Positions 1,091 through 36,734 are shown, numbered from the stretch's first letter. The stretch is 45,013 bases of DNA from Ignavibacteria bacterium (GCA_026417495.1 JAOADD010000021.1:1-45013), one strand, 5' to 3'. A program made the numbers and translations. The notes: generated by a model from the letters alone, not told the origin.

Positions 1091-2527
1091 ATGGATGTAG
1101 AATTTTTATCCCGTTTACAATTTGCAATAACTGTAGGGTTTCATTTTATTTTTCCCCCTATTACAATAGGATTAGCACTAATGTTGGTAATAATTGAATG
1201 GATAGGGTGGAAAAAGAATGACATTCAATATGTAAAACTTGGAAAATTCTTCGGAAAAATATTAGCAATAACTTTTGCAGTTGGGGTTGCATCAGGTTTA
1301 GTAATGGTTTTACAATTTGGGACCAATTGGGCAAGATACTCAGTGTTTGTTGGAGATGTTTTTGGAGCACCACTTGCAGCGGAAGCAGTATTTGCATTCT
1401 TTTTAGAATCAACATTTCTTGGATTGTATCTTTTTGGTAGGAATAGGGTATCAAAAGGTGTACATTGGTTTTCAATTCTAATGGTCACTATTGGTTCAAT
1501 GATATCTGCATTTTGGATTTTAGTCGCAAATTCCTGGCAACAAACACCCGCAGGATTTGCAATTCAAAACATCACAACAGGAGAAATAATTAATAATCCA
1601 ATTTTAGGTAAAGGATATGACCCTACCCAGTATAGAGCGGTCTTAACGGATTTTTGGGCGGCTGTTTTCAATCCAACAACTTTAACACGATTCCTACACG
1701 TAATTCTTGCATCCTTTATTGCTGGTACTTTTATGCTTGCAGGTACCTGTGCTTATATAATATTAAAGATTAAAAAGAACTATAAAGATAAGGAAGAGGA
1801 AATTCCTGAAGAAGATAAACAAACAATAAATATTGCAGAAAAAGGATTAAAAAAAGGCTTAGTTTTTGGATTAATTTTCTCACTTTTACAACTTTTCCCA
1901 TCAGGTCACGAACATGCTAGAGATGTATATAAATACCAGGAATCAAAATTTGCAGCAACTCAAGGATTATATAAATCTACCGAGTCAGCAAGATTACTAT
2001 TGTTCGGCTATTTAACAGGAGATTCTATTCCAGAAATGAAAGCAGAAATTTCTATTCCTGGTTTGCTAAGCTGGCTTGTATCAGGTAACTTTAATACAAG
2101 AATAAAGGGAATGGAAGAAATTCCTGCTGAAAATAGACCACCAATGTGGTTACCTTTTGTTTCATATCATAATATGATAATACTTGGAATGTTATTTATC
2201 GCATTAACTGCTTTTGGTGTTCTACAAATTATAAGAAAGAAATTACTCAATAGTAAGAAATTCCTGAGAATATTATTTTTATCAATACCTTTACCTGTTG
2301 CTGCTTCCCAATTTGGATGGGTCGCTGCTGAGGTAGGAAGACAACCCTGGACTGTATTTAATATTTTAAGAACAAAAGATTCATTCTCAAATGTTGTCCC
2401 CTTAGAACAAGTATGGATTACAATAATCCTCTTTACTTTAATATACTTGGTAATGACATTTATATATATATTTATTCTAATGCGTGAACTTAAACATGCA
2501 CCCGTTATATTAAAAGAAAAATTATAA
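1091..2527 (+). CDS. cydA: Cytochrome bd-type quinol oxidase subunit I
   Basis: This is the catalytic haem-bearing subunit of cytochrome bd oxidase, which oxidises quinol and reduces O2 to water in the inner membrane. The 478-residue protein has about nine hydrophobic segments. Ligand positions match the family: H18 in GFHFIFPP, H203 in TRFLHV and M362 in SYHNMII. Acidic residues E98 and E106 lie in the AEAVFAFFLES stretch, and the GRQPW signature is at 416-420. The Q-loop region is short, so it belongs to the short Q-loop type rather than the E. coli long-loop form. cydB follows after 21 bases. Since menA is also in this window, menaquinol is the likely donor (inference). No cydX or cydDC was seen nearby. 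Confidence 0.97.
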   Translation: MDVEFLSRLQFAITVGFHFIFPPITIGLALMLVIIEWIGWKKNDIQYVKLGKFFGKILAITFAVGVASGLVMVLQFGTNWARYSVFVGDVFGAPLAAEAVFAFFLESTFLGLYLFGRNRVSKGVHWFSILMVTIGSMISAFWILVANSWQQTPAGFAIQNITTGEIINNPILGKGYDPTQYRAVLTDFWAAVFNPTTLTRFLHVILASFIAGTFMLAGTCAYIILKIKKNYKDKEEEIPEEDKQTINIAEKGLKKGLVFGLIFSLLQLFPSGHEHARDVYKYQESKFAATQGLYKSTESARLLLFGYLTGDSIPEMKAEISIPGLLSWLVSGNFNTRIKGMEEIPAENRPPMWLPFVSYHNMIILGMLFIALTAFGVLQIIRKKLLNSKKFLRILFLSIPLPVAASQFGWVAAEVGRQPWTVFNILRTKDSFSNVVPLEQVWITIILFTLIYLVMTFIYIFILMRELKHAPVILKEKL

Positions 2528-2548
2528 AATAACTAAAAATTTTATAAT

Positions 2549-3565
2549 ATGGATTTAAACATAATCTGGTTTATCTTAATTACAATTCTATTATCTGTAT
2601 ATGCAATCTTAGATGGATTTGATTTTGGAGTTGGTATTTTACACATAGGGGCAAAATCAGAAGAAGAAAAGAGATTGCTTATGAATTCAATTGGTCCCGT
2701 ATGGGACGGAAACGAAGTGTGGTTACTAGCAGGTGGTGGATCTATATTTGCTGCTTTTCCTTTTGTATATGGAACAGTATTCAGTGCATTTTATCTCGCG
2801 GTTTATTTGCTTCTCCTTGCTTTGTTTTTTAGAGCAATTTCCTTTGAGTTTAGAAGTAAAGTTGAATCAAATGGTTGGCGAAAATTCTGGGATTTTTCTT
2901 TTGAATTTGGTAGTCTATTACCTCCAATATTATTGGGGGTTGCTTTCGGTAATATTTTGAGAGGATTACCATTAGATGAAAATAAGGTTTTTGTTGGTTC
3001 TTTTATCGAATTGCTAAATCCTTACGCAATACTAATTGGAATAACAACTCTTATTATGTTTCTAATGCAAGCATCAATTTACTTGACACACAAGACTGAT
3101 GGAGAGTTAAAAGAAAAATATGAAAAACTTGCTGTAAATTTCTGGGTTGCGTTTATTATTCTTTATGTAATTGCAACTATAGCAACTCTCTTTGTTTCTA
3201 AATTTCTTTTTGTCGGAATAACAAAAAGCATTTTATTCTGGATTCTCTTTCTTGTATTCTTAGTTTCCATTGTAATGATACCTATAAATCTTAAATCAAA
3301 AAATAATAAGAGGGCATTTATTTTTTCTTCCTTAACTATATTTACTTTGATAGGAATTTCAGCTGTCAGTTTATTTCCGAGGTTTGTACCATCACTAATA
3401 GATTTAAATTATAGCTGGACAATATATAATGGGGCATCAACCCCAAAAACTTTAACAACAATGCTCATTATAGCATTGATTGGTATGCCTTTAGTTGTTA
3501 TTTATACAATTTTCATTTATAGGGTATTCAAAGGTAAAACTGTTATAACAAAAGATAGTTATTAA
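2549..3565 (+). CDS. cydB: Cytochrome bd-type quinol oxidase subunit II
   Basis: This is the structural partner of CydA. The 338-residue protein opens with the family hallmark YAILDGFDFGVGIL and carries GPVWDGNEVWLL, both typical of CydB. About eight to nine transmembrane segments span the protein. Its length matches usual CydB proteins. It lies 21 bases after cydA and 13 bases before the sirtuin gene, all on the same strand, so the three are probably cotranscribed. There is no clear Shine-Dalgarno, as is usual in this group. Confidence 0.97.
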   Translation: MDLNIIWFILITILLSVYAILDGFDFGVGILHIGAKSEEEKRLLMNSIGPVWDGNEVWLLAGGGSIFAAFPFVYGTVFSAFYLAVYLLLLALFFRAISFEFRSKVESNGWRKFWDFSFEFGSLLPPILLGVAFGNILRGLPLDENKVFVGSFIELLNPYAILIGITTLIMFLMQASIYLTHKTDGELKEKYEKLAVNFWVAFIILYVIATIATLFVSKFLFVGITKSILFWILFLVFLVSIVMIPINLKSKNNKRAFIFSSLTIFTLIGISAVSLFPRFVPSLIDLNYSWTIYNGASTPKTLTTMLIIALIGMPLVVIYTIFIYRVFKGKTVITKDSY

Positions 3566-5484: not shown

Positions 5485-7041
5485 TTAATTACGAAGAATT
5501 ATCTGTATATAAGTTTCAAAATTCATTAAATAAGAACCTGCTTTTAAAGAGTAATAGTACATAAACTCTGGGTATATACTAACAATCAGCATAACAATAA
5601 CAATAACCAATATTGAAAAAACCATAGAAGGTTTTATGTTATAAAACTGACCTTTTTTTTGCAGTTCTGGGTGTGCGTCAGTTTCTTTCCAGAAACAATT
5701 ATTCCAAATTTTAAGCATAGAAAAAAGAGTAAGCAAGCTAACAAAAATTGCAATAATAGAAATTACATAGTTTTGACTTTCAAAACCTGCCTTAATTATA
5801 ATAAATTTAGCCCAGAAACCAGGCAACGGTGGAATACCAGCAAGCGAACCAGCCGAAATCAAAAATAGTATACTAACAAATGGCATAGTTTTGAAAATAT
5901 CAGAAATGTTATCTATACAATAAGTTTTAAACTTAATATAAATCCAACCAGCAATCATAAATAATACAGTCTTTGTTAAAATAATGTGAAGCATAAAGAA
6001 CACAGCAGCAGCAAGAGAATATTCTGTATAAATTCCAAGTCCCATCAGTATATAACCAATTTGACTGATTATATGAAATGATAGAATTCTTCTAATATCA
6101 CTTTGGGCAAAAGCACCCAATACACCTGTAACCATAGTAAATCCTGCTAATATAATCATTACAGTGCTAGTAAAATTCAAATCAAAATGAAAAACAACAG
6201 TAAAAACTCTCATCATAGAATACACACCTGCCTTAGTTAGCAGGGCTGAAAAAATTGCAGTTACAGCAATTGGCGGAGTATGATAAGAGGCAGGCAACCA
6301 GAAAAACAGAGGAAATATTGCTGCTTTTATTCCAAAGGATACAAAGAATAACATTGAAATTGCATTGATAAGCGCCCTATTATCTAATCCTGGAATTGCG
6401 CTTCTTTCTGTTTGATTAATGAAATAGTAAATTTTTTGGCTTAGATCAGCAAAGTTCAAAGTACCTGTAATACTATACAAAAATCCAATTCCAAATAGAA
6501 ATATAAAAGAAGCAAGTAGGTTTAAAGTAACATATTTAACAGCTCCTTCCAGCTGACACTTTTCATTTCCAAGCACAATTAAAACAAAAGAAGAAATAAG
6601 CATTAGTTCAAACCAAACGAATAGATTAAATATATCACCCGTAAGGAAAACCCCACAAACTCCTGCAATCATAATCTGGAAGAAAATATAAAATCCGTAT
6701 TTTTCCCTTTCTGAATCTATAGTTGAAAGAAAATAAATTGATATACATAATGCCATAAATCCAGTCATCAAAACCATTATTGCACTGAACATATCCATAG
6801 CAAATATAATACCAAATGGCGCAATCCAATTACCAAATGAAAAATAAATAATTTTTTCAGAATCTATGTTTATGAATAATATTATTGAAACAAAAAATAT
6901 AAGAATGGAGCTAGTAATGTTTATAATTCTTGATATTATTAACGAATTTCGAAAAAGAATTAAAAATAACACTGCAATTAGGGGTATAATTACAGGCAAA
7001 ACAATTATAAAATCAATATTTGTATTAAATGGTATAATCAT
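5485..7041 (-). CDS. mrpD: Mrp-type Na+/H+ antiporter subunit D
   Basis: This 518-residue polytopic membrane protein belongs to the proton-translocating NuoM/NuoN-like antiporter family. It carries conserved features such as the FNLFVWFELMLISSF stretch with the key Glu, the lysine-bearing FGIKAAIFPLFFWLP segment and the SYHTPP motif. About fourteen helices are expected. In Mrp complexes MrpD works with MrpA as the proton pathway. It could be confused with NuoN, but its position between mrpC and mrpE settles the assignment. It overlaps the end of mrpC by four bases. Confidence 0.95.
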   Translation of the reverse strand: MIIPFNTNIDFIIVLPVIIPLIAVLFLILFRNSLIISRIINITSSILIFFVSIILFINIDSEKIIYFSFGNWIAPFGIIFAMDMFSAIMVLMTGFMALCISIYFLSTIDSEREKYGFYIFFQIMIAGVCGVFLTGDIFNLFVWFELMLISSFVLIVLGNEKCQLEGAVKYVTLNLLASFIFLFGIGFLYSITGTLNFADLSQKIYYFINQTERSAIPGLDNRALINAISMLFFVSFGIKAAIFPLFFWLPASYHTPPIAVTAIFSALLTKAGVYSMMRVFTVVFHFDLNFTSTVMIILAGFTMVTGVLGAFAQSDIRRILSFHIISQIGYILMGLGIYTEYSLAAAVFFMLHIILTKTVLFMIAGWIYIKFKTYCIDNISDIFKTMPFVSILFLISAGSLAGIPPLPGFWAKFIIIKAGFESQNYVISIIAIFVSLLTLFSMLKIWNNCFWKETDAHPELQKKGQFYNIKPSMVFSILVIVIVMLIVSIYPEFMYYYSLKAGSYLMNFETYIQIILRN

Positions 7042-7412
7042 TTTTCTTTACTACTTTTGACAATAATTTTATCTGTAGTATTTAAATCATCAAGGTCTTC
7101 TGTTTTATTAATAATATATGCTCGTTTTATCAAAATGGTTGAAAATGCAATTAAACCAAACCCAATTACAATAGCAGTTAAAATCAGAGCTTGGGGAATA
7201 GGATCTGAATGAATTTCAGAAAGAGAGTTCAAATTTTCAGGAATAATTGGTGGTCTGCCCTTAACAAGCTTTCCAGAAATGAAAAGCAAAAGATTAACTG
7301 CATTAGAAATTAAAGCAAATCCTAAAATTAATCTAACTATACTTCTTCGCAATATCATATATATACCAACTGCGAAAATAACACCAGATAATATTGTAAT
7401 AAAAATAAGCAT
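7038..7412 (-). CDS. mrpC: Mrp-type Na+/H+ antiporter subunit C (NuoK-like)
   Basis: The 124-residue protein has three helices and is homologous to complex I subunit NuoK. The stretch GFALISNAVNLLLFISG matches the MrpC/NuoK signature, and DPIPQALILTAIVIGF is the typical MrpC segment. It starts at the last base of mrpA and overlaps mrpD, so the three are tightly coupled. Confidence 0.95.
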   Translation of the reverse strand: MLIFITILSGVIFAVGIYMILRRSIVRLILGFALISNAVNLLLFISGKLVKGRPPIIPENLNSLSEIHSDPIPQALILTAIVIGFGLIAFSTILIKRAYIINKTEDLDDLNTTDKIIVKSSKEK

Positions 7413-10192
7413 CAGTTTTCCATAATTGAAAATACAGATTTTAAAATTACACCTGTAACAAGGAAATAAATACCAACATCAAATAAAAATGGAGTACCAA
7501 TTTTTTGAACTACTGGTATATATAAATCGAACCAAACTCCTTGCATAAACGAATATCCAAATAAAAGAGGTATAAAGGTAGAAATCAGTATTATCGCAAA
7601 TCCAAATCCTATTATAGTTTCAGGAGAGAATTTAAGAGTAGTTCTTGCTTTTTCCGAATTCTCTGCAAGAGCTAAAATAGCAAATACTGATGAAGCTACT
7701 AAACCACCAACAAATCCTCCCCCTGGTTGATTATGCCCTCTGAATAAAAGAAATATTGAAAAAATCAAAAGTAATGGTATAATTAATTTAGTTGCTGTTA
7801 CCAATAAAACAGAATAATAGGAATGAAGATTTGAGTTACTATTTACAGAATGATTATATGTTGTCTTCAGTTCTGATTTACTTGAAATTGAATCAATGTG
7901 TTTATTACCCCCTAATTTCATTAAAGCATAAATACCAAAGCATGCAGTTAACAAAACCGTAACTTCAACAAGAGTATCAAGTGCCCTGAAATCAACTAAA
8001 ATAACATTAACAATATTTCTTCCCTGAGCCAGTAGCAAACTATTTTCAGAATAGAATTTAGAAGTAAATTTTGATGGTTCTATGTAACTTATAAGAAAAA
8101 TAAACATTACAAATACTGCACCACAAATTGCACTTACGAAAATATCCCTTAAAATTGTTTTCTTTTGAGAATAAGCAGAAAATTTAGGCAATCTAAAAAT
8201 TACAAGAACAAAAATAATCACGGTAAGGGTTTCAATTGCAAATTGTGTCATAGCAAGATCAGGAGCTCCATATATGAAGAAAATAGCAGATATACCATAT
8301 CCAACTACACCAAGAAGAATAATAGCAAATATTCTCGACTTTAAAATCGGAATAGTTAAAGCAGCAATCACTATGATAAAATAAAGAATAAATTCGTAAA
8401 AAATGAAATCAAAATTATAGAACCATTCAGAAATATTATCGAAAACGCGAACTATATCAGATTGAAAGAATATTGGAAAGGAAATAATAAATAAAGTAAA
8501 TAAAATAATTATTAGAATATAATTTCTCAAATAACCACTTTGTAAAAAGCGAGTTTGAAGAACAGCAATATTTTTTAAAAAATCAATAGTATAATTATAA
8601 AGCAATGAAGGCTTTAAATATTTAACAAATTCTTCTGTTTGCAATCTGAAATACTGGCGGTATCTATATGCATAATACCCCCCAATAAATGTGAATATGC
8701 TAAGTAAAAGTGGCCAGCTAAATCCAGGCCAGAAACTTATATCAAGATTAACTTTAACACCCATTACTCCACTTATAGCGGGATTGATAATTGAATCATT
8801 AATTGAGGAAGGGAATAAAGAACTAATAAAACCTAATGTTGAAAGAATAAACGGAGAAACAAGAAAAAGTGGTTTTATAACAATTTTTTTCTTTTCATAG
8901 CTACCCGCAAAAGGTTTGAATCCAACCAGAAAAGCAGAGCATATAAGAAATATATTTGTTATAAGGAATACTATACTTAGTACCCATACAATAAAATCAG
9001 ATTGTACAACAGCCTTATAGGAAATTTCTTTCGCAAAATAACCAAAGAACGGTGGAATACCACTTTGGGATAATGCTGCAGTTAATGCTATAATTGCAAA
9101 TATTGGTGCCGTTTTATATAATCCTTTTAGTGTTTCAATATTCCTTGTATGTGTATAGTGTTCAATAACTCCTGCTGAAAGGAATAAACTTGCTTTATAT
9201 AATGCATGAGCTAAAAAATATATTACTGCCGCCTGTATAGCATATTTGGAGCCTATACCAATTAAAACTACCATTGCTCCAAGAGAAGAAATAGTGGAAA
9301 ACGCTAAAATTTGTTTTAAGTCCGTTCTTTTAGCACTAATAAATGCTGCGAAAAGCATAGTAGTCATACCAACAAAAATGAGTGTATACTTCCATAGATC
9401 AGTATCACCAAGTATAGGAAAAAGTCTCATCAGAAGAAAGATTCCCGCTTTAACCATAGTTGCAGAGTGAAGATATGCACTAACGGGAGCAGGGGCTATC
9501 ATAGCATTAGGTAACCAAAAGTGAAAAGGCATTTGAGCTGACTTTGTAAATGCCCCAACAAGTATTAGAAAAAGTAACGGTAAGTAAAAATTACTAAAAA
9601 TTATAGTTTCTCTATGAGCGCTTAATTCCTTCAAACTAAAAGTACCTGTAAGTAAATAAATAATAACAAATCCAGCAAGTAAAGCTAATCCACCGAATGC
9701 TGTAACAATAAGTGCCTGCTGTGCCGCAATAATTGAAGCTTCTTTTTTGTTATAATATCCAATTAGAAAAAAAGAACTTACACTTGTTAACTCCCAAAAG
9801 ATAAATATCATTATCAAATTTCCTGAAACCACAATTCCCAACATAGAACCAGCAAACATAAGTATATATGTATAGAACCTACTTAAGTTATCTTTATCTT
9901 TTAGATATACACCAGAGTAAATTATTATTAAGCTTCCTATGAAAAGGATAAGAATAGCAAAAATAAAGCTAAGGCCGTCAATGTAAATTTCAAGAAAGAT
10001 ATTAAGGGAAGGAAACCATTCATATTTTAAATAAATAGGACCATTTTTCAGTTGATTTTCAAAAGGAATTACATATACCAAACAGAATAAAAGAAAGAAA
10101 GATAAAAACCAATGAGTTATTTCCTTTGCAAAGTGATAAATTATAGGTACAGCAAAAGCTATTGCAAATATAAGTAATAAAATCAAAAGCAT
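7412..10192 (-). CDS. mrpA: Mrp-type Na+/H+ antiporter, fused subunits A and B
   Basis: This 926-residue polytopic protein is the first gene of the antiporter operon. The N-terminal two thirds are NuoL-like, with [15 protein letters not shown], the lysine-bearing [19 protein letters not shown] and [10 protein letters not shown] following MrpA-specific segment contains [17 protein letters not shown]. Residues about 787-926 form a complete MrpB/MnhB domain with the [14 protein letters not shown] signature at 818. No separate mrpB exists in the operon, so the A-B fusion supplies it. The complex exchanges Na+ (or K+) for protons and supports pH or salt homeostasis. A 195-base AT-rich gap separates it from the divergent gene at 10388 and should hold both promoters. 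Confidence 0.95.
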
Positions 10193-24536: not shown

Positions 24537-25238
24537 TTAGAACTCTCTTTCAACACATTTCATTTTTAACTGCGAAAGATGCCATGTAATGTTAATTTCC
24601 TTTGGGCATACTTCTACGCAGTTAAAAATTGTGTGGCAACGCCAGAGCCCATCTGGAGTGTCAATTATATCAAGTCTTTCATTTGCTGCCTCATCACGAC
24701 TGTCAAATATAAATCTATATGCTTTAAGAAGTGCAGCTGGTCCAAGATAATTTTCATTAGTCCATTGTGATGGGCAAGAAGTAGAACAAGCACCGCAAAG
24801 TATACAGTTGACAGATTCGTCTATTAAAGCGCGGTCTTCTGGGCTCTGAAGTCTTTCTTTCTGAGGAGGTTGTTGTTTATTTATTAAGTACGGCTTTACT
24901 ATCTCATACTTAGCAAAAAATAAATCCATATCTACTATAAGATCTTTAATAATTGGTAAAGCTGGTAAAGGATCAATTTTGATGTATTTCTTTTTAAAAT
25001 CCTTAACAAGGACTTGACAGGCAAGCCGATTTTTACCATTAATCATCATAGCATCAGATCCACATATTCCATGGGAACAAGAACGTCTATACGACAAACT
25101 ACCATCCTGTTCCCACTTTACTTTATCAAGGCAATCCAGTATTCTATCAGTTGGTTCAGCATCTATTGTGTATTCTTTCCTGTAAGGTCTTTCATCCTTT
25201 TCAGGGTCAAATCTTAATATTGATAAAGTTACTTTCAT
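24537..25238 (-). CDS. sdhB: Succinate dehydrogenase/fumarate reductase iron-sulfur subunit
   Basis: The 233-residue protein carries electrons from SdhA to quinone through three iron-sulfur clusters. The [2Fe-2S] ligands are C54, C59, D62 and C74 in RRSCSHGICGSD and RLAC. The [4Fe-4S] and [3Fe-4S] sites are in CILCGACSTSCPS and CHTIFNCVEVCPK. The Asp at the fourth 2Fe ligand position is the same as in E. coli SdhB. The gene starts at the last base of sdhA. Confidence 0.96.
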   Translation of the reverse strand: MKVTLSILRFDPEKDERPYRKEYTIDAEPTDRILDCLDKVKWEQDGSLSYRRSCSHGICGSDAMMINGKNRLACQVLVKDFKKKYIKIDPLPALPIIKDLIVDMDLFFAKYEIVKPYLINKQQPPQKERLQSPEDRALIDESVNCILCGACSTSCPSQWTNENYLGPAALLKAYRFIFDSRDEAANERLDIIDTPDGLWRCHTIFNCVEVCPKEINITWHLSQLKMKCVEREF

Positions 25239-26983
25239 TAGTACTTCCTCTCCTGTGGTTGATAATTTAAAATTGTAACTGGTTTATATTTTAATTTTAT
25301 TCCTTTATCAGTTTTAAAAGCAAATGTATGTTTTAGCCAGTTTACATCATCACGTTTTTCATAATCTGTTCGCCAGTGTGCACCACGACATTCTTTTCTT
25401 TCAAGAGCACCAAGTATAATTACTTCAGAAAACTCAAGTAAATTGCCAGTTTCAATTATTTCCATTAGCTCTGTATTGAAAACTTTTCCTTTAAATGAGA
25501 GGTTTACATTTTTAAATCTCTCCTTTAAAGAGCGAACAGTTTCAAGTGCAGATTTTAAATCAGTTTCATTACGAAAAACACCACATTTATTTGTCATCTC
25601 TGTTTTTAGGGTTTTTCTTATAACATCTGCATTTTCACTGCCATTACCAGAAAATAGTTGATTTATATATTCTTCATCAGATTTTCCAGCATCAATTGGT
25701 AAAGGGGAAAGCTCAGCTTCTTTTAAAAACTTCAGAATTGTTTTTCCTGCCCTTCTCCCATGAACAACAGCATCCAGAAGTGAATTTGTTCCAAGTCTAT
25801 TTGCTCCATGTACTGAAATGCAAGCACACTCACCAGCGGCAAAAAAACCAGTAATTAGTTTTCCTTTCTCATTCGCACATACATTCCCATATAAATCAGT
25901 TGGAATTCCTCCCATAGAGTAATGAGCAGTAGGAAGAATCGGGATAGGATGCACGGCGGGATCAATACCAGCATAGGTTTTCGCAAAACCGGTAATTTCA
26001 GGTAATCGCTCTTTAAGTTTTTCCCTTCCCAAATGCGTTAAGTCAAGATAAACATAATCTTTTCCATTTATACCACGTCCCTCATTAATTTCTGTTTGAA
26101 TACTACGAGTAACCATATCGCGTGGTGCAAGTTCCATAACAGTTGGTGCATAGTTTTTCATAAATCTTTCACCATTATTATTCAATAGATAACCACCTTC
26201 TCCTCTTGCACCTTCAGTAACAAGAATTCCTAAGGGATACAAACCAGTTGGATGAAACTGAACGAATTCCATATCTTCAAGGGGTATACCTGCTCTAAAA
26301 GCAATAGCAACACCATCACCAGAGTTTGCATAAGCATTAGAAGTGACTCTATAAGCCCTACCGTATCCACCTGTTGCAAATAACACTGCTTTTGAGTGAA
26401 AGATATGCAATGATGTATCTAATAGGTTAATAGCAACAACCCCACGGCATATATTATCCTCAAGAATTAAAGAAGTAATAAAATATTCAGAAAAGAACTT
26501 TACATTATTCTTTACACATTGTTCATATAAAGTGTGTAAGATAACATGACCTGTTCTATCCGCAGAATAGCAAGCACGGAGTACGGGTACTCGTTTTTTA
26601 TTACCTTGGTCATCAACTACTTCCTTTGTATGACCGCCAAATTGCCGTTGCGCAATTTTCCCTTCTTTAGTTCGACTGAAAGGTACTCCCATATGCTCAA
26701 GTTCATAAATAACTTCTGGAGCTTCTTTCACCATTAACTCTATAGCATCTTGATCCCCAAGGTAATCACTCCCTTTTACAGTATCAAAAATGTGCCATTC
26801 AATGCAATCGGGCTCTTCATTACCAAGAGCAGCAGCAATTCCACCTTGTGCAGCTCCTGAGTGAGAGCGGGTGGGAAATACTTTTGAAATTACGGCAACT
26901 TTTGCATGATTTGAAGTTTCAACAGCAGCACGTAAACCTGCTAAGCCCGCACCCACAATAACTAAATCATATTGATGTATCAT
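25238..26983 (-). CDS. sdhA: Succinate dehydrogenase/fumarate reductase flavoprotein subunit
   Basis: The 581-residue protein interconverts succinate and fumarate with a covalently bound FAD. It has the dinucleotide site [13 protein letters not shown], the flavinylation site [15 protein letters not shown], active-site stretches [20 protein letters not shown] and [20 protein letters not shown], and the C-terminal [14 protein letters not shown]. Length and order match SdhA. It is the first gene of sdhA-sdhB-acp-kbl2 on the minus strand. No sdhC or sdhD lies next to it: the 230 bases upstream hold no coding region that I can see. Direction in the cell (succinate oxidation or fumarate reduction) cannot be told from these motifs. 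Confidence 0.97.
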
Positions 26984-27213: not shown

Positions 27214-28155
27214 TTACTTGTTAATATAAATCAATTTATAAGTATAGCTATCTATGTTTTCGTTACTTGATTTTCTAATAATATTCATATACTGCCCACA
27301 ATTACTTCCTATTTTGTTTTCTTCTAATTCACCTATGCTTAAAATAACATTATATTCCGAATCTAAAATTTTTTTAATGCTATCAGAATATACATTCTCA
27401 TTTTTAAGTGCTGAAGATAATTTGTTTTTTATAGCATTAACAGTTGGATTAATTGGTGTAATTTTTATACAAAATATTTCAGGTGGAAAAAATTTAACTA
27501 AAACATCTTTTTCAAAAGGATAATTTTCTTCAAGAGCAAAATTAAGTGTAATTTTTCTCTCCCCTTGCCTGTAATATTTATAACCAAATTTACTAATTTC
27601 TGTAAATGACAATTTTCTTATGGGAATAATTTTATCTCTTAACTCTTCAGATGTTGTGTGTATAGAAAACTGTAATTGAAAATTACCTTTGTAAATTTGA
27701 TTTTTTATTTCTATTAATCGGTTTAAAAATTCCCTTGAACTTTGAGGAGCTACTGTTGAAATGGAAGGTAATAGACCTTTTGCAAAATAAATATCAGGTA
27801 ACTTTTCCAAAACAGATAAAATGTTCTTATTAAAAGTTGGTTCTCCAACCCTCGCAAATTGTATTTTAAATTTTTCAATTGGTATATTCCTTTCATATCC
27901 TTTCTGTTTAACAAGAAAATCAATTTGCCAAAGGAGTTCTTTTTCTGAAAGAATACCATCATAACCACCCGCTGCATCGCAAAAATGACATTTTACGGGG
28001 CACCCATATAAAGAAGATACAATAATAACCCATTTCTTTTCCAATGGTAGTGGGGGTTGAACCGATTCTACAAACTCGATTAGCTTTCCATTATCAGAAG
28101 AAGCAATGTATACTCTTGCAATATCACTGTATTCCGTATAAGCAATTAGTTTCAA
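27214..28155 (-). CDS. Radical SAM protein, RlmN/Cfr-like, lacking one catalytic Cys and the N-terminal domain
   Basis: The 313-residue protein has a CxxxCxxC cluster (C52, C56, C59 in GCPVKCHFCD) and RlmN-like elements: VGEPTFNKN, the FSIHTTSEELRDKIIPI stretch, LNFALEENYP and the C-terminal NCGQY, whose C286 corresponds to methyl-carrying C355 of RlmN. The second catalytic Cys of RlmN (C118), seven residues before the first cluster Cys, is Ile here (I45). The RlmN N-terminal helical domain is also missing. Standard A2503 methylation is therefore unlikely. It overlaps the flavoprotein gene by four bases, so it is translationally coupled to it. It may use the C286-methyl chemistry on another substrate; this is inference. 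Confidence 0.82.
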   Translation of the reverse strand: MKLIAYTEYSDIARVYIASSDNGKLIEFVESVQPPLPLEKKWVIIVSSLYGCPVKCHFCDAAGGYDGILSEKELLWQIDFLVKQKGYERNIPIEKFKIQFARVGEPTFNKNILSVLEKLPDIYFAKGLLPSISTVAPQSSREFLNRLIEIKNQIYKGNFQLQFSIHTTSEELRDKIIPIRKLSFTEISKFGYKYYRQGERKITLNFALEENYPFEKDVLVKFFPPEIFCIKITPINPTVNAIKNKLSSALKNENVYSDSIKKILDSEYNVILSIGELEENKIGSNCGQYMNIIRKSSNENIDSYTYKLIYINK

Positions 28156-29000
28156 GCTGTGTTTTTTAATTCTTTAAAAATTTTCATTGCTACTTTTATC
28201 CCATCACCAGAAGCAATTGCGATTTGTCTAAATTTAGGATTTCTCACATCACCTGCAAGATAGAGTCCTTTGTATTTTTTAATTTTCTCTATCAATAAAT
28301 TATTTGGTTTTCTACCTATCGCAGGAACAAGATAATCTGAAGTAATTTCAAGTATATTATTATTTAATTTATGCTTAAAATGTAAAATAATTTTTTTATT
28401 GTAATCTAAAACATTTATCAATTTGTAATTATAAAGGTATCTGATATTAGTGTTTTGAAAGACCTTATCGGATAGAGAATTAATGCACTTACAATTATGA
28501 CTTCTATTAATAAGTATAACATTATTTTCCATAGACAATGAAAGAGCATAATCAAAAGCAACATCTCCTGAACCAATAACTGTAATTGTTTTATTCTTTA
28601 CTTTTTTTAACTTAATAATATCATAAAAAATTCTATCAGACTCAAAAGGAATCTTTACAGGAATAGAACCAGTTGCAAGAACAAGAAACTTTGATGAATA
28701 TTTTTCTGAATCCGAATAAACCACAAATTCATTATTTAAAAAACCAATTTTATACACTTCTCTTTGTAAAATTGGAATATGAAATTTCTTTAGCTGTGAA
28801 ATAAAAAGTTTAGCTAACTCTTCCCCATATATAAAATCAGGAAAACCAAGGTAATTTTCAATAAGGTAGGCATTTCGCAAATGTGAGCAGGGTTTATTTT
28901 TATCTAATAATAAGAAACTTACTCCAAACCTTTTTAGTTGAATTGCAGTTGATATTCCAGCAACTCCTGCACCAATTATGATTACATCAAATTTTTTCAT
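28152..29000 (-). CDS. Thioredoxin reductase-like FAD/NAD(P)H oxidoreductase without CxxC
   Basis: The 282-residue flavoprotein has two dinucleotide-binding sites: VIIIGAGVAGISTA (residues 6-19) for FAD and VIGSGDVAFDYALSL for NAD(P)H. It has ATGSIP and the C-terminal YLAGDVRNP, as in thioredoxin reductase and ferredoxin-NADP reductase of the same fold. The redox-active CxxC that thioredoxin reductases carry in the NADPH domain is absent. It may therefore pass electrons to a protein or small carrier, as TrxR-like ferredoxin-NADP reductases do. It is the middle gene of an overlapping trio, so it could supply electrons to the radical SAM enzyme (inference). Confidence 0.85.
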   Translation of the reverse strand: MKKFDVIIIGAGVAGISTAIQLKRFGVSFLLLDKNKPCSHLRNAYLIENYLGFPDFIYGEELAKLFISQLKKFHIPILQREVYKIGFLNNEFVVYSDSEKYSSKFLVLATGSIPVKIPFESDRIFYDIIKLKKVKNKTITVIGSGDVAFDYALSLSMENNVILINRSHNCKCINSLSDKVFQNTNIRYLYNYKLINVLDYNKKIILHFKHKLNNNILEITSDYLVPAIGRKPNNLLIEKIKKYKGLYLAGDVRNPKFRQIAIASGDGIKVAMKIFKELKNTA

Positions 29001-29625
29001 TTATTATTTTAGCGGTTTTAGTGATTATAGAGCAACAATGAGATAAATTCATTAGAGATGCAATATGAAAGTTAAGATTATAATCTGCAGTAGCGTCAAG
29101 TGGTATAACAGGTAAAAACCCTCTAATAAATGCTGAGCGAGCTGTGGTTTCACAACATATATGTGTAATCACACCTGTAATTATAAGTTGAAAAACTGAA
29201 AACTCTTTTAATAATTTTTCTAGCTTTGTTTTATAAAATGCATCATAATAATTTTTTCTCAATAAAATGCAATTATCCTTTTCAATTTTAGGATATATAT
29301 CTAAAAAGCTACCTTTGAAATTTCTATTATTTTTCCACCAGTAATTCATAAGAGAATTTTCTTTGTTAAAATGTTGTGTCAAAATCACTGGTCGATTGTG
29401 ATCTTTAAAATACGCAATAAGTTTATTAATATTGTTAATAATCTCCAATGAAGTTGGAATGAATGCATTGGATTGAGAATTAAGAAAATAATTTTGCATA
29501 TCAAGCACAAGTAAAGCAGATTTTGAATAGTTAGATTTTAAATTCTTCACTTCAATAATTTTCGAATAAATTTTCTTAATATTTATGTTTCTAATTTTCT
29601 TATCAAAATAATTTTCTTTTAGCAT
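28987..29625 (-). CDS. Isochorismatase-like cysteine hydrolase
   Basis: The 212-residue protein belongs to the isochorismatase/nicotinamidase fold. Its catalytic triad is visible: D42 in LLVLDMQNYF, K124 in LLRKNYYDAF and C157 in GVITHICCETTARSAF. The family includes nicotinamidases, ureidoacrylate hydrolases and isochorismatases. Substrate cannot be told, and the zinc ligands of nicotinamidases are not obvious. An N-terminal lysine-rich extension of about 33 residues precedes the fold. The stop overlaps the next gene by 14 bases, so it is the first gene of the trio. Confidence 0.88.
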   Translation of the reverse strand: MLKENYFDKKIRNINIKKIYSKIIEVKNLKSNYSKSALLVLDMQNYFLNSQSNAFIPTSLEIINNINKLIAYFKDHNRPVILTQHFNKENSLMNYWWKNNRNFKGSFLDIYPKIEKDNCILLRKNYYDAFYKTKLEKLLKEFSVFQLIITGVITHICCETTARSAFIRGFLPVIPLDATADYNLNFHIASLMNLSHCCSIITKTAKIINEKI

Positions 29626-29794: not shown

Positions 29795-30943
29795 TTATGG
29801 ATTTATAGTTTCTTTATACTTAAATTCACCATTTTTTATCTCAACAATAATACAAGGTTTAATTGGGTTTCTATCATGATCCATTGTAATATTACCTGTA
29901 ACCCCATTAAAATTTTTTGTCTGAGCTAATGCTTCTTTAATTTTTATTCCATTTATAGAGTTAGCTCTTTTAATAGCATCAAATAGAAGCATAGCAGCAT
30001 CATACCCAAGAAATGCATAACCGTTGGGCTCTTGACCGTATTTATTCCTAAATTTGTTCAAAAAATCCTGAACTTGTGGAGATTGATCTTCTTTCGATAC
30101 ATGAGTAGAAAAATAACATCCTTCAAGACTTTGTTTTGCTTGTCCTTCCAACAGCTTTTCTGAATCCCACCCATCTCCACCAAATAAGGGAACTTTTATT
30201 CCGTTATTCCTTGCTTGAATAGAAATAAGATTGATATCAGAATAATATCCTGGAATGAAAATGGCATCAGGATTCTTATTCTTAATTCTTAATAGTTGAA
30301 TTGTAAAATCTTTATCACCAGCAGAATATTTTTCTTCCGCCACAATTTCACCCCCTAATGAAGTAAACAATAATTTAAACCCTTCTGCTAAACCCGTAGA
30401 ATATGTATTCTTTTCATCAATAAATAAAGCAACTCTCCTAACTTTAAGAGAGTTGAAGGCAAATCTTGCATTTACTGCTGCTTGAAAAGAGTCCGTGAAA
30501 CAAACTCTAAAAATATAATCTCCAAGTTTTGTTACCTCAGGATTTGTAGAACCAGGTGTTATCATTGGAATTTTTGCACTTTGACAAAGAGGAGCTGCTG
30601 CTTTACTGCGAGAGGAGGCAACTTCACCAATAAGTGCTGTGATTTTATTTTTATTTATCAGTTTACTTACAACGGTAACAGTTTCGTTATTATCTCCTTT
30701 GTTATCTTCTGTAATCAGTTCTATTTTTTTACCTAGTAAACCACCTGAATTGTTAATTTCATCTACTGCCATTCTCACACCCTTATCTTGAGATTGTCCA
30801 AACTCTGCTTCACTACCTGTTAAACAAGCAAATTGCCCAATGATGATATAACTTTCTTTTTTGTCTCTATCACACCCTATAAATACAAGTAGAAAAATTA
30901 TTAAAATTAAAATTGTTAAATGGTTGCTGGATATAATTTTCAT
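29795..30943 (-). CDS. ABC transporter substrate-binding lipoprotein, branched-chain amino acid (Leu/Ile/Val) type
   Basis: The likely 382-residue lipoprotein is a periplasmic-binding protein type I (LivJ-like). It has a lipobox, LVFIGC with C24, directly followed by DRD. Sequence features such as IGQFACLTGSEAEFGQSQDKG, GGLLGKKIELITEDNKGD, IPMITPGSTNPEVT and YDAAMLLFDAI are typical of the family. I chose the ATG at 30943, because the longer frame from 31018 adds 25 residues before a good signal peptide. No permease or ATPase genes lie in this window, so it is an orphan here. Its ligand may be an amino acid, amide or other small molecule. Confidence 0.88.
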   Translation of the reverse strand: MKIISSNHLTILILIIFLLVFIGCDRDKKESYIIIGQFACLTGSEAEFGQSQDKGVRMAVDEINNSGGLLGKKIELITEDNKGDNNETVTVVSKLINKNKITALIGEVASSRSKAAAPLCQSAKIPMITPGSTNPEVTKLGDYIFRVCFTDSFQAAVNARFAFNSLKVRRVALFIDEKNTYSTGLAEGFKLLFTSLGGEIVAEEKYSAGDKDFTIQLLRIKNKNPDAIFIPGYYSDINLISIQARNNGIKVPLFGGDGWDSEKLLEGQAKQSLEGCYFSTHVSKEDQSPQVQDFLNKFRNKYGQEPNGYAFLGYDAAMLLFDAIKRANSINGIKIKEALAQTKNFNGVTGNITMDHDRNPIKPCIIVEIKNGEFKYKETINP

Positions 30944-31189
30944 AAAAATTTTTGAAATATCTTTAAAAGCTCTCGTAATTATAATACAATTTAATTCAAG
31001 TTTAAATGAAAAAATCACATAATCAGCAAAACAAATTCAGAATTTTTTGCAATATAAATAGATTATTTATTTAAAAAATAATTGTATGGTTTTACAATAG
31101 TAAAAATACAAAAAAATTTATTTAACAATTTCTTAACTAATGCTTAATATTAGTTATTCTTTCTTTATGCTAACATAATATAGTAGGGA

Positions 31190-35777: not shown

Positions 35778-36734
35778 TTATAAAAAGAAAAGGTAAGCAA
35801 CAAGTAATCCACTTGCAAGTGTTAACCCAAATTGCATATTGAATTGTGCGGTCAATAGATTATATTTTGTCCCATACTCAAATCTTTCAATACCATTAGC
35901 AGGGATATTTTTTGCCATTTTAATTAACTTAATAGCAGTTGGTAATGTAATAAAATTCAGCAACGCAGGCCATGGTAATAACCCAAGAATAACAAAAATT
36001 ACAATTGAAAGATATGCACCAATAATTAAGAAATAGTAAAAATATTTAGAAAGTTTTTCTCCAACTAAAATCGGAATAGTTTTAATACCAAAAGAATTAT
36101 CAAATTTTACATCTCTCATATTGTTAGAGTGCAATATTGCATCAATTAAAAATCCTAATGGTATAGATAACACAATAGGTAACCATGAGAACTCCTTCGT
36201 TTGAACATAATATGCGCCAAAGGTCATACCTGTTCCAAATGCTAAAAATACCATAATATCACCAAGAGCTTTGTACTTAAGTTGTAGCGGTGTTGCTGTA
36301 TAAAATATAGAAGCAAACAACCCAAAAATCATTAAATACAGTACCCATATACCCGTCATCAACCATAGAATAATTCCGATAATTAGAGAAATAACAAAAG
36401 ACACAATAGAAATAATTTTCATTTTTTCAATTGAAACCAGTCCCATAGAAAGCACCATAGAACCACCGTGTGGAATTCCAAGTTCTTTATTTTCTTTATC
36501 TATACCTTTTTTGTAATCGAAAATATCATTTACAATATTAGCACCAACATGAACACACATTGAGCCAATTAGAGTTAGAAAGAAAATAAGGAAATCAAAT
36601 TTGATTCCCCTGTTAAGTATTACAGCAAGCAAGGAACCATAAATTACAGGGATGATGGATGCAGGAAATGCATAAGCGCGAATGGTCATCATCCATAACT
36701 TGAATCCTTTGGGAGGGGTTTGTTCTAAGTTCAT
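35778..36734 (-). CDS. menA: 1,4-dihydroxy-2-naphthoate polyprenyltransferase
   Basis: This integral membrane enzyme attaches a polyprenyl chain to dihydroxynaphthoate in menaquinone synthesis. The 318-residue protein of the UbiA family has the first prenyl-diphosphate motif NIVNDIFDYKKGID and the second, ILHSNNMRDVKFDN. The latter carries NNxRD, typical of MenA rather than UbiA. About eight to nine helices are predicted. Menaquinone would serve as the quinone pool for SdhAB and cytochrome bd. A weak alternative is another UbiA-family prenyltransferase. Confidence 0.9.
   Translation of the reverse strand: MNLEQTPPKGFKLWMMTIRAYAFPASIIPVIYGSLLAVILNRGIKFDFLIFFLTLIGSMCVHVGANIVNDIFDYKKGIDKENKELGIPHGGSMVLSMGLVSIEKMKIISIVSFVISLIIGIILWLMTGIWVLYLMIFGLFASIFYTATPLQLKYKALGDIMVFLAFGTGMTFGAYYVQTKEFSWLPIVLSIPLGFLIDAILHSNNMRDVKFDNSFGIKTIPILVGEKLSKYFYYFLIIGAYLSIVIFVILGLLPWPALLNFITLPTAIKLIKMAKNIPANGIERFEYGTKYNLLTAQFNMQFGLTLASGLLVAYLFFL

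Follow-up and report, generated by a model that had tools for sequence, protein, structure and literature searches.

A recurrent three-gene operon of an isochorismatase-family hydrolase, a CxxC-less flavoprotein and an RlmN-like radical SAM protein that lacks the resolving cysteine

The closest described relatives of the three proteins analysed here are the class A radical SAM methylases RlmN and Cfr, the isochorismatase-fold cysteine hydrolases (nicotinamidase, N-carbamoylsarcosine amidase, RutB and biuret hydrolase), and thioredoxin reductase (TrxR) together with the ferredoxin-NADP reductases (FNR) of the same fold. The resolving cysteine (C118 in RlmN, C105 in Cfr) is considered indispensable in those class A methylases that have been studied well. 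RlmN uses E105 to activate the carrier cysteine, C355, which bears the methyl group; C118, which probably acts as a base, is indispensable for adduct release (PMC9692996).

We analysed a window of 45,013 nucleotides from an Ignavibacteria bacterium (GCA_026417495.1, JAOADD010000021.1:1-45013) in which three genes, designated HYD, FAD and rSAM, follow one another on the minus strand:

28987-29625, minus strand: HYD, the cysteine hydrolase (212 codons)
28152-29000, minus strand: FAD, the flavoprotein (282 codons)
27214-28155, minus strand: rSAM, the radical SAM protein (313 codons, TTG start)

HYD and FAD overlap by 14 bases and FAD and rSAM by 4 bases, in agreement with the overlapping minus-strand trio described in an earlier note on this DNA. 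The TTG start of rSAM is plausible because rSAM homologues from other genomes start at the equivalent residue. The gene for a periplasmic-binding protein (29795-31018) lies 169 bp upstream of the trio, and the other flank (25238-26983) holds a gene named from its sequence as a succinate-dehydrogenase/fumarate-reductase-like flavoprotein; neither of these flanking genes recurs beside the trio in other genomes, and promoter- and terminator-like sites at the window trio did not exceed chance level. Farther off in the window are genes for a cytochrome bd oxidase (1091-3565), an Mrp/MBH-type antiporter operon (5485-10192) and a UbiA prenyltransferase (35781-36734).

A scan of GTDB genomes yielded at least 510 relatives (at least 585 matching stretches), of which the best 80 contigs, ~48-57% identical, span at least 24 phyla as judged by record names, 3 of them archaeal. 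In these 80 contigs, profiles built for each of the three proteins place HYD-FAD-rSAM, in this order, in 50, whereas 15 contain FAD-rSAM and 15 contain rSAM only, with a contig end cutting ~13 of the incomplete loci. The HYD to FAD junction overlaps or spans at most 10 nt in 45 of the 48 adjacent pairs, and the FAD to rSAM junction does so in 56 of 61, being exactly −4 nt in 36 of them. Genomes with a split operon nearly always encode HYD at another place, often with FAD adjoining; in two split-operon genomes (G060 and G070), HYD was not found. Recurrence across at least 24 phyla, co-occurrence and tight junctions rule out a chance neighbourhood, and on these genomic grounds the trio is almost certainly a real functional unit. 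The coupling of the three genes proposed in the earlier note is thus borne out by their recurrence and overlaps, by the joint loss of HYD and FAD described below and by co-occurrence when the operon is split; the search for orthologous neighbourhoods that it had suggested found the same gene order in 50 of 80 contigs, contrary to an absence of recurrence, but the range that it had named (Ignavibacteria, Chlorobi and other anaerobes) proved too narrow, given a patchy distribution over at least 24 phyla that include archaea.

Among 296 sampled genomes of the window's phylum, rSAM is present in 5, HYD in 5 and both in 4, and FAD, at a strict threshold, is present in 3, each of which also contains rSAM and HYD. 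Trio-type rSAM was found in 7/149 genomes of an archaeal class, in 18/98 of the phylum to which a Zixibacteria genome belongs and in 2/150 of the class that includes an Anaerolineales genome, and no strong rSAM match came from two sister species within the genus of the window. Such patchy occurrence of rSAM, together with a mixed tree, suggests that horizontal exchange underlies the distribution of the trio. Two apparent gene fusions were found among the loci. A 516-aa HYD-FAD ORF (L289) is an artefact of reading through a run of N. In another locus (L024:7425-9170), FAD and rSAM form a single 581-aa ORF whose junction falls in an A-homopolymer; a 1-nt slip in the A-run restores the usual ATGA overlap, so that this fusion, which may be a sequencing error, was downgraded as proof of a complex.

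HYD (212 aa) belongs to the isochorismatase family (Pfam Isochorismatase, E = 1.1 × 10−36) and is single-copy at the family level in the host genome. Its catalytic residues are as follows:

29500..29502, minus strand: catalytic Asp42 (100% of 47 homologues)
29254..29256, minus strand: catalytic Lys124 (100% of 47 homologues)
29155..29157, minus strand: nucleophile Cys157 (100% of 47 homologues; adjoining Cys158, 91%)

The D-K-C triad that had been read from the sequence earlier is therefore present (D42/K124/C157) and invariant in the 47 homologues. HYD has this triad and its family in common with the described isochorismatase-fold hydrolases but forms a subfamily of its own, marked by the conserved signature CCETTARSAF / YDAFYxT. 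It does not reach the NCBIfam equivalog cut-offs for nicotinamidase, RutB, biuret hydrolase or YcaC, scoring 50.5 vs. 195 bits for the best model (hydrolase PRK11440), 44.5 vs. 378 bits for RutB and 41.1 vs. 370 bits for BiuH. The closest solved structures are EntB-type isochorismatases and cysteine hydrolases; EntB itself, the nearest chain by sequence, has Gly at the site of the HYD cysteine. At four loci of the Gastranaerophilales/Melainabacteria type (L241, L242, L244 and L247), ORFs of 111-118 aa for a small conserved protein adjoin HYD; the one copy scanned had no Pfam match.

FAD (282 aa; Pyr_redox_2, E = 1.6 × 10−21) has a TrxR fold in its AlphaFold2 model (pLDDT 94), scores 145 bits on the thioredoxin reductase model TIGR01292, under the cut-off of 343, and falls below the curated cut-offs of both TrxR and AhpF. 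Two nucleotide-binding motifs are conserved:

28956..28973, minus strand: GxGxxG FAD-binding motif, G10-G15 (G10, G12 and G15 100% of 64)
28563..28574, minus strand: second nucleotide-binding motif GxGD, G143-D146 (G143 and D146 100%, G145 98% of 64)

FAD shares the fold and both motifs with thioredoxin reductase and the TrxR-fold ferredoxin-NADP reductases. It differs from thioredoxin reductase in its length of only 282 aa, its linkage to a radical SAM gene, the replacement of the TrxR-type 'HRR' NADPH motif by (L/I)NR, and the missing CxxC, which FNR-type members of the fold also lack. The window protein and all 64 homologues examined are without a CxxC at the TrxR site, which extends to the family what had been observed earlier for the single protein.

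rSAM scores 42.5 bits on the RlmN model TIGR00048 (equivalog cut-off 290), and a bona fide RlmN encoded elsewhere in the host genome (G000:C18:15558-16625) scores 293 bits, which rules out rSAM as the RlmN of this host. Comparison of the AlphaFold2 model of rSAM (pLDDT 88) to solved structures (Foldseek/VIA) places RlmN at the top (5hr6, Z 24.9 over 267 residues), well ahead of viperin (Z 14.3), which ranks highest among families other than RlmN/Cfr, and hhalign of rSAM with the host's own RlmN gives a probability of 98.6. The whole 313-aa protein aligns with RlmN residues 80-362 only, leaving residues 1-79 unmatched, so that rSAM is without the RlmN N-terminal domain. The positions that correspond to catalytic residues of RlmN are:

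28066..28068, minus strand: Glu30 of 'VES', the proposed counterpart of E105 in RlmN (98% of 80; without exception in a 40-row alignment)
28021..28023, minus strand: Ile45 at the RlmN Cys118 site (I/L/M/T in 79/80)
27979..28002, minus strand: radical SAM motif C52xxxC56xxC59 (100% of 80)
27838..27846, minus strand: GEP motif, G104-P106 (G104 and P106 100%, E105 93% of 80)
27298..27300, minus strand: Cys286 in GSNCGQ, corresponding to the methyl-carrying Cys355 of RlmN (100% of 80; aligned with C346, in CGQL, of the host's own RlmN)

Thus, rSAM has the fold, CxxxCxxC, GEP and the cysteine of the methyl-carrier site in common with RlmN and Cfr and probably also the activating glutamate, E30 being equated with E105 of 'VET' on a motif match made by eye; the GEP motif would contact SAM by analogy with RlmN. 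It differs from RlmN and Cfr in lacking the N-terminal domain and the resolving cysteine, the latter a defining feature of class A methylases that rSAM fails by sequence, and in being set in an amidase-flavoprotein operon. With C52/C56/C59, C286 and apparently the activating glutamate (E30) kept and C118 not, rSAM appears to retain the methyl-loading and radical parts of the machinery and to have the release part replaced, a refinement of the earlier note's view that the methyl-carrier chemistry is RlmN-like but altered, which the kept C52/C56/C59 and C286 and the Ile45 at the C118 site uphold. Methyl-carrier chemistry in rSAM is accordingly likely, as far as conserved residues can tell. Invariant or near-invariant basic residues (K41, K97, R102, K201 and K231) suggest an anionic substrate.

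Phage relatives of rSAM (phrog_24834, 111 bits) form a separate clade of RlmN-like proteins that share the KWV, FARMGEP and K-TLNFA motifs with rSAM but are only ~28-37% identical to it. They keep the carrier cysteine in 76/78 cases and have Thr in place of the resolving cysteine in 78/78. Neither HYD nor FAD was found nearby on the viral contigs, and some of the phage copies (viral contigs L120-L199) are near apparent NAMPT, SAM synthetase or GroEL genes.

In g17, a sister genus, FAD was absent from 8/8 genomes tested and HYD from 7/7; the g17 genomes G031 and G038 keep the trio. Genomes of g17 mostly keep an rSAM paralogue, which in the usual arrangement shares 4 nt with an acyl-CoA ligase gene and has genes for 4-hydroxyphenylpyruvate dioxygenase (HPPD) and an HgmA-like dioxygenase in its vicinity. 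This lone-rSAM context was seen in genomes of the same order (L023:2125-10306, L025, L027, L028, L030-L035 and L037), and at the first of these loci the ligase gene set adjoins the full trio; the ligase, HPPD and HgmA-like genes make up a different set of partners for this enzyme fold. The sampled g17 lone rSAMs form a single clade (100% SH-aLRT), and most are altered at positions that are otherwise near-invariant (Q99H, A101T, N205S and N285T), changes that would be consistent with a substrate shared with the partner enzymes. The contrast between lone rSAMs and the trio of G031 and G038 indicates that HYD and FAD come and go together, their loss being accompanied by change at conserved rSAM positions, and the persistence of rSAM without FAD implies that FAD is not strictly required for the basic chemistry of rSAM. 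In-frame TGA codons in two g17 homologues, considered as possible selenocysteine, are ordinary stop codons that end these proteins slightly earlier at the C terminus.

Our main reading is that HYD, FAD and rSAM constitute one horizontally mobile pathway operon that works, overall, by the following mechanism, and we put its probability at about 0.5. The substrate of rSAM would be a soluble small molecule and not rRNA. A first SAM would methylate C286, with E30 as base; a second would give rise to a 5'-dA radical, which would convert S-methyl-C286 into a methylene radical; the latter would add to a substrate sp2 carbon, following the course of RlmN and Cfr. Because C118, indispensable in RlmN and Cfr, is missing, methyl transfer would need a new release step, and the covalent adduct would be released differently, by another base, by a group of the substrate or with help from the flavoprotein. 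FAD would be a dedicated redox partner on the NAD(P)H side, feeding the cluster or reducing an intermediate, and HYD would remove or release an amide-type group before or after the rSAM step. The parts of this scheme differ in strength: the trio probably runs a small-molecule pathway, and FAD is a plausible electron donor to rSAM; that FAD serves rSAM rather than converting the metabolite has not quite an even chance, and the fuller version, in which an RlmN-type methyl-cysteine radical enzyme without a resolving cysteine transfers or inserts a single carbon, as methylene or methyl, into a small metabolite of common occurrence, FAD taking part in release or reduction and the amidase completing the pathway, is tentative.

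The rival readings of the trio are not mutually exclusive. FAD could instead be an oxidase, reductase or hydroxylase that converts the metabolite within the same pathway unit, rSAM drawing its electrons from housekeeping ferredoxin or flavodoxin; this we consider a real possibility, although we would not expect it. FAD and HYD stay paired where rSAM lies elsewhere, both were lost from g17 while rSAM survives, and the NADPH motif of FAD has changed from HRR to (L/I)NR, all of which would suit a metabolite-converting enzyme, whereas the FAD-rSAM junction, with 36/61 at exactly −4 nt, is the tightest of the trio, and FAD-rSAM pairs without adjoining HYD occupy 15/80 contigs. A methylase of rRNA or tRNA, that is, a paralogue of RlmN and Cfr only loosely linked to its neighbours, would explain why RlmN and Cfr provide the closest folds and profiles of rSAM, but it is very improbable, since C118 is missing and since an amidase and a flavoprotein accompany rSAM almost without fail. 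An RNA substrate is also rendered less likely by the absence of the RlmN N-terminal domain and by the presence of a true RlmN in the host genome.

Alternatively, rSAM might transfer no methyl group at all, with C286 as a radical relay or a thioether-forming residue in a rearrangement or ring cleavage. Such chemistry could be expected of a protein family with intact radical machinery whose resolving cysteine is missing (79/80 members of the rSAM family, and replaced by Thr in all 78 phage proteins); the carrier cysteine, however, is invariant in the trio proteins and kept in nearly all phage proteins, and the RlmN-type activating glutamate is apparently kept, which makes this reading unlikely. 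As to the substrate, the genomic context at some loci points to a methylated-amine or betaine-type amino acid compound, in one-carbon or osmolyte chemistry. At five loci (L061, L078, L086, L097 and L114), components of a corrinoid methyltransfer operon precede the trio; an MttB-type methyltransferase gene is directly upstream in the first four, some corrinoid-context loci also have genes for an MtgC-like corrinoid protein and/or a homocysteine methyltransferase and a Met_synt_B12-like protein, and L114 has the corrinoid gene. In Methanomicrobiaceae, the trio lies between a KamA-like aminomutase and a fusion protein in which a class I methyltransferase is joined to an ATP-grasp domain of the D-Ala-D-Ala-ligase type, and the methyltransferase-ATP-grasp fusion is also found near HYD-FAD in a Cloacimonadota genome. 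Fusions of this kind, 635-668 aa long, occur at L108, L287, L288, L289 and L249:5064-7070. These contexts are a loose hint of chemistry on methylated amines or amino acids, but neighbours of this kind are absent at most loci, the MttB cases come from few and probably related bacterial lineages and the archaeal ones from a single family, so that this substrate class is rather improbable for the trio as a whole.

The trio is apparently an undescribed system, as the earlier note had surmised: no paper linking these three genes was present in the literature searched, the reach of which excludes most subscription journals; a review on selenoproteins and a paper on iron regulation that did surface appeared from their abstracts to be unrelated. 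Judged by sequence, the three proteins all belong to known superfamilies, within which they are divergent, and none reaches a named equivalog. If one-carbon transfer does proceed here without a resolving cysteine, the release chemistry would be new for class A enzymes, and rSAM and the phage family, as natural families without C118, would show both how methyl-cysteine radical chemistry acts on other substrates and how the adduct can be released without that residue. Given that a single flavoprotein and a single amidase accompany rSAM across at least 24 phyla, the pathway would be directly testable through three small genes.

Among 832 neighbours of 144 loci, no constant fourth gene was found. 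ABC ATPases and T9SS proteins near the trio were set aside as generic neighbours, and a search for a defence link with PADLOC gave nothing for rSAM or HYD and one weak generic match for FAD. A gene for quinolinate synthase (NadA) lies near the trio at four loci (L061, L078 and L086, where it is downstream on the opposite strand, and L247:6080-6988), a proximity that may reflect inherited synteny rather than function.
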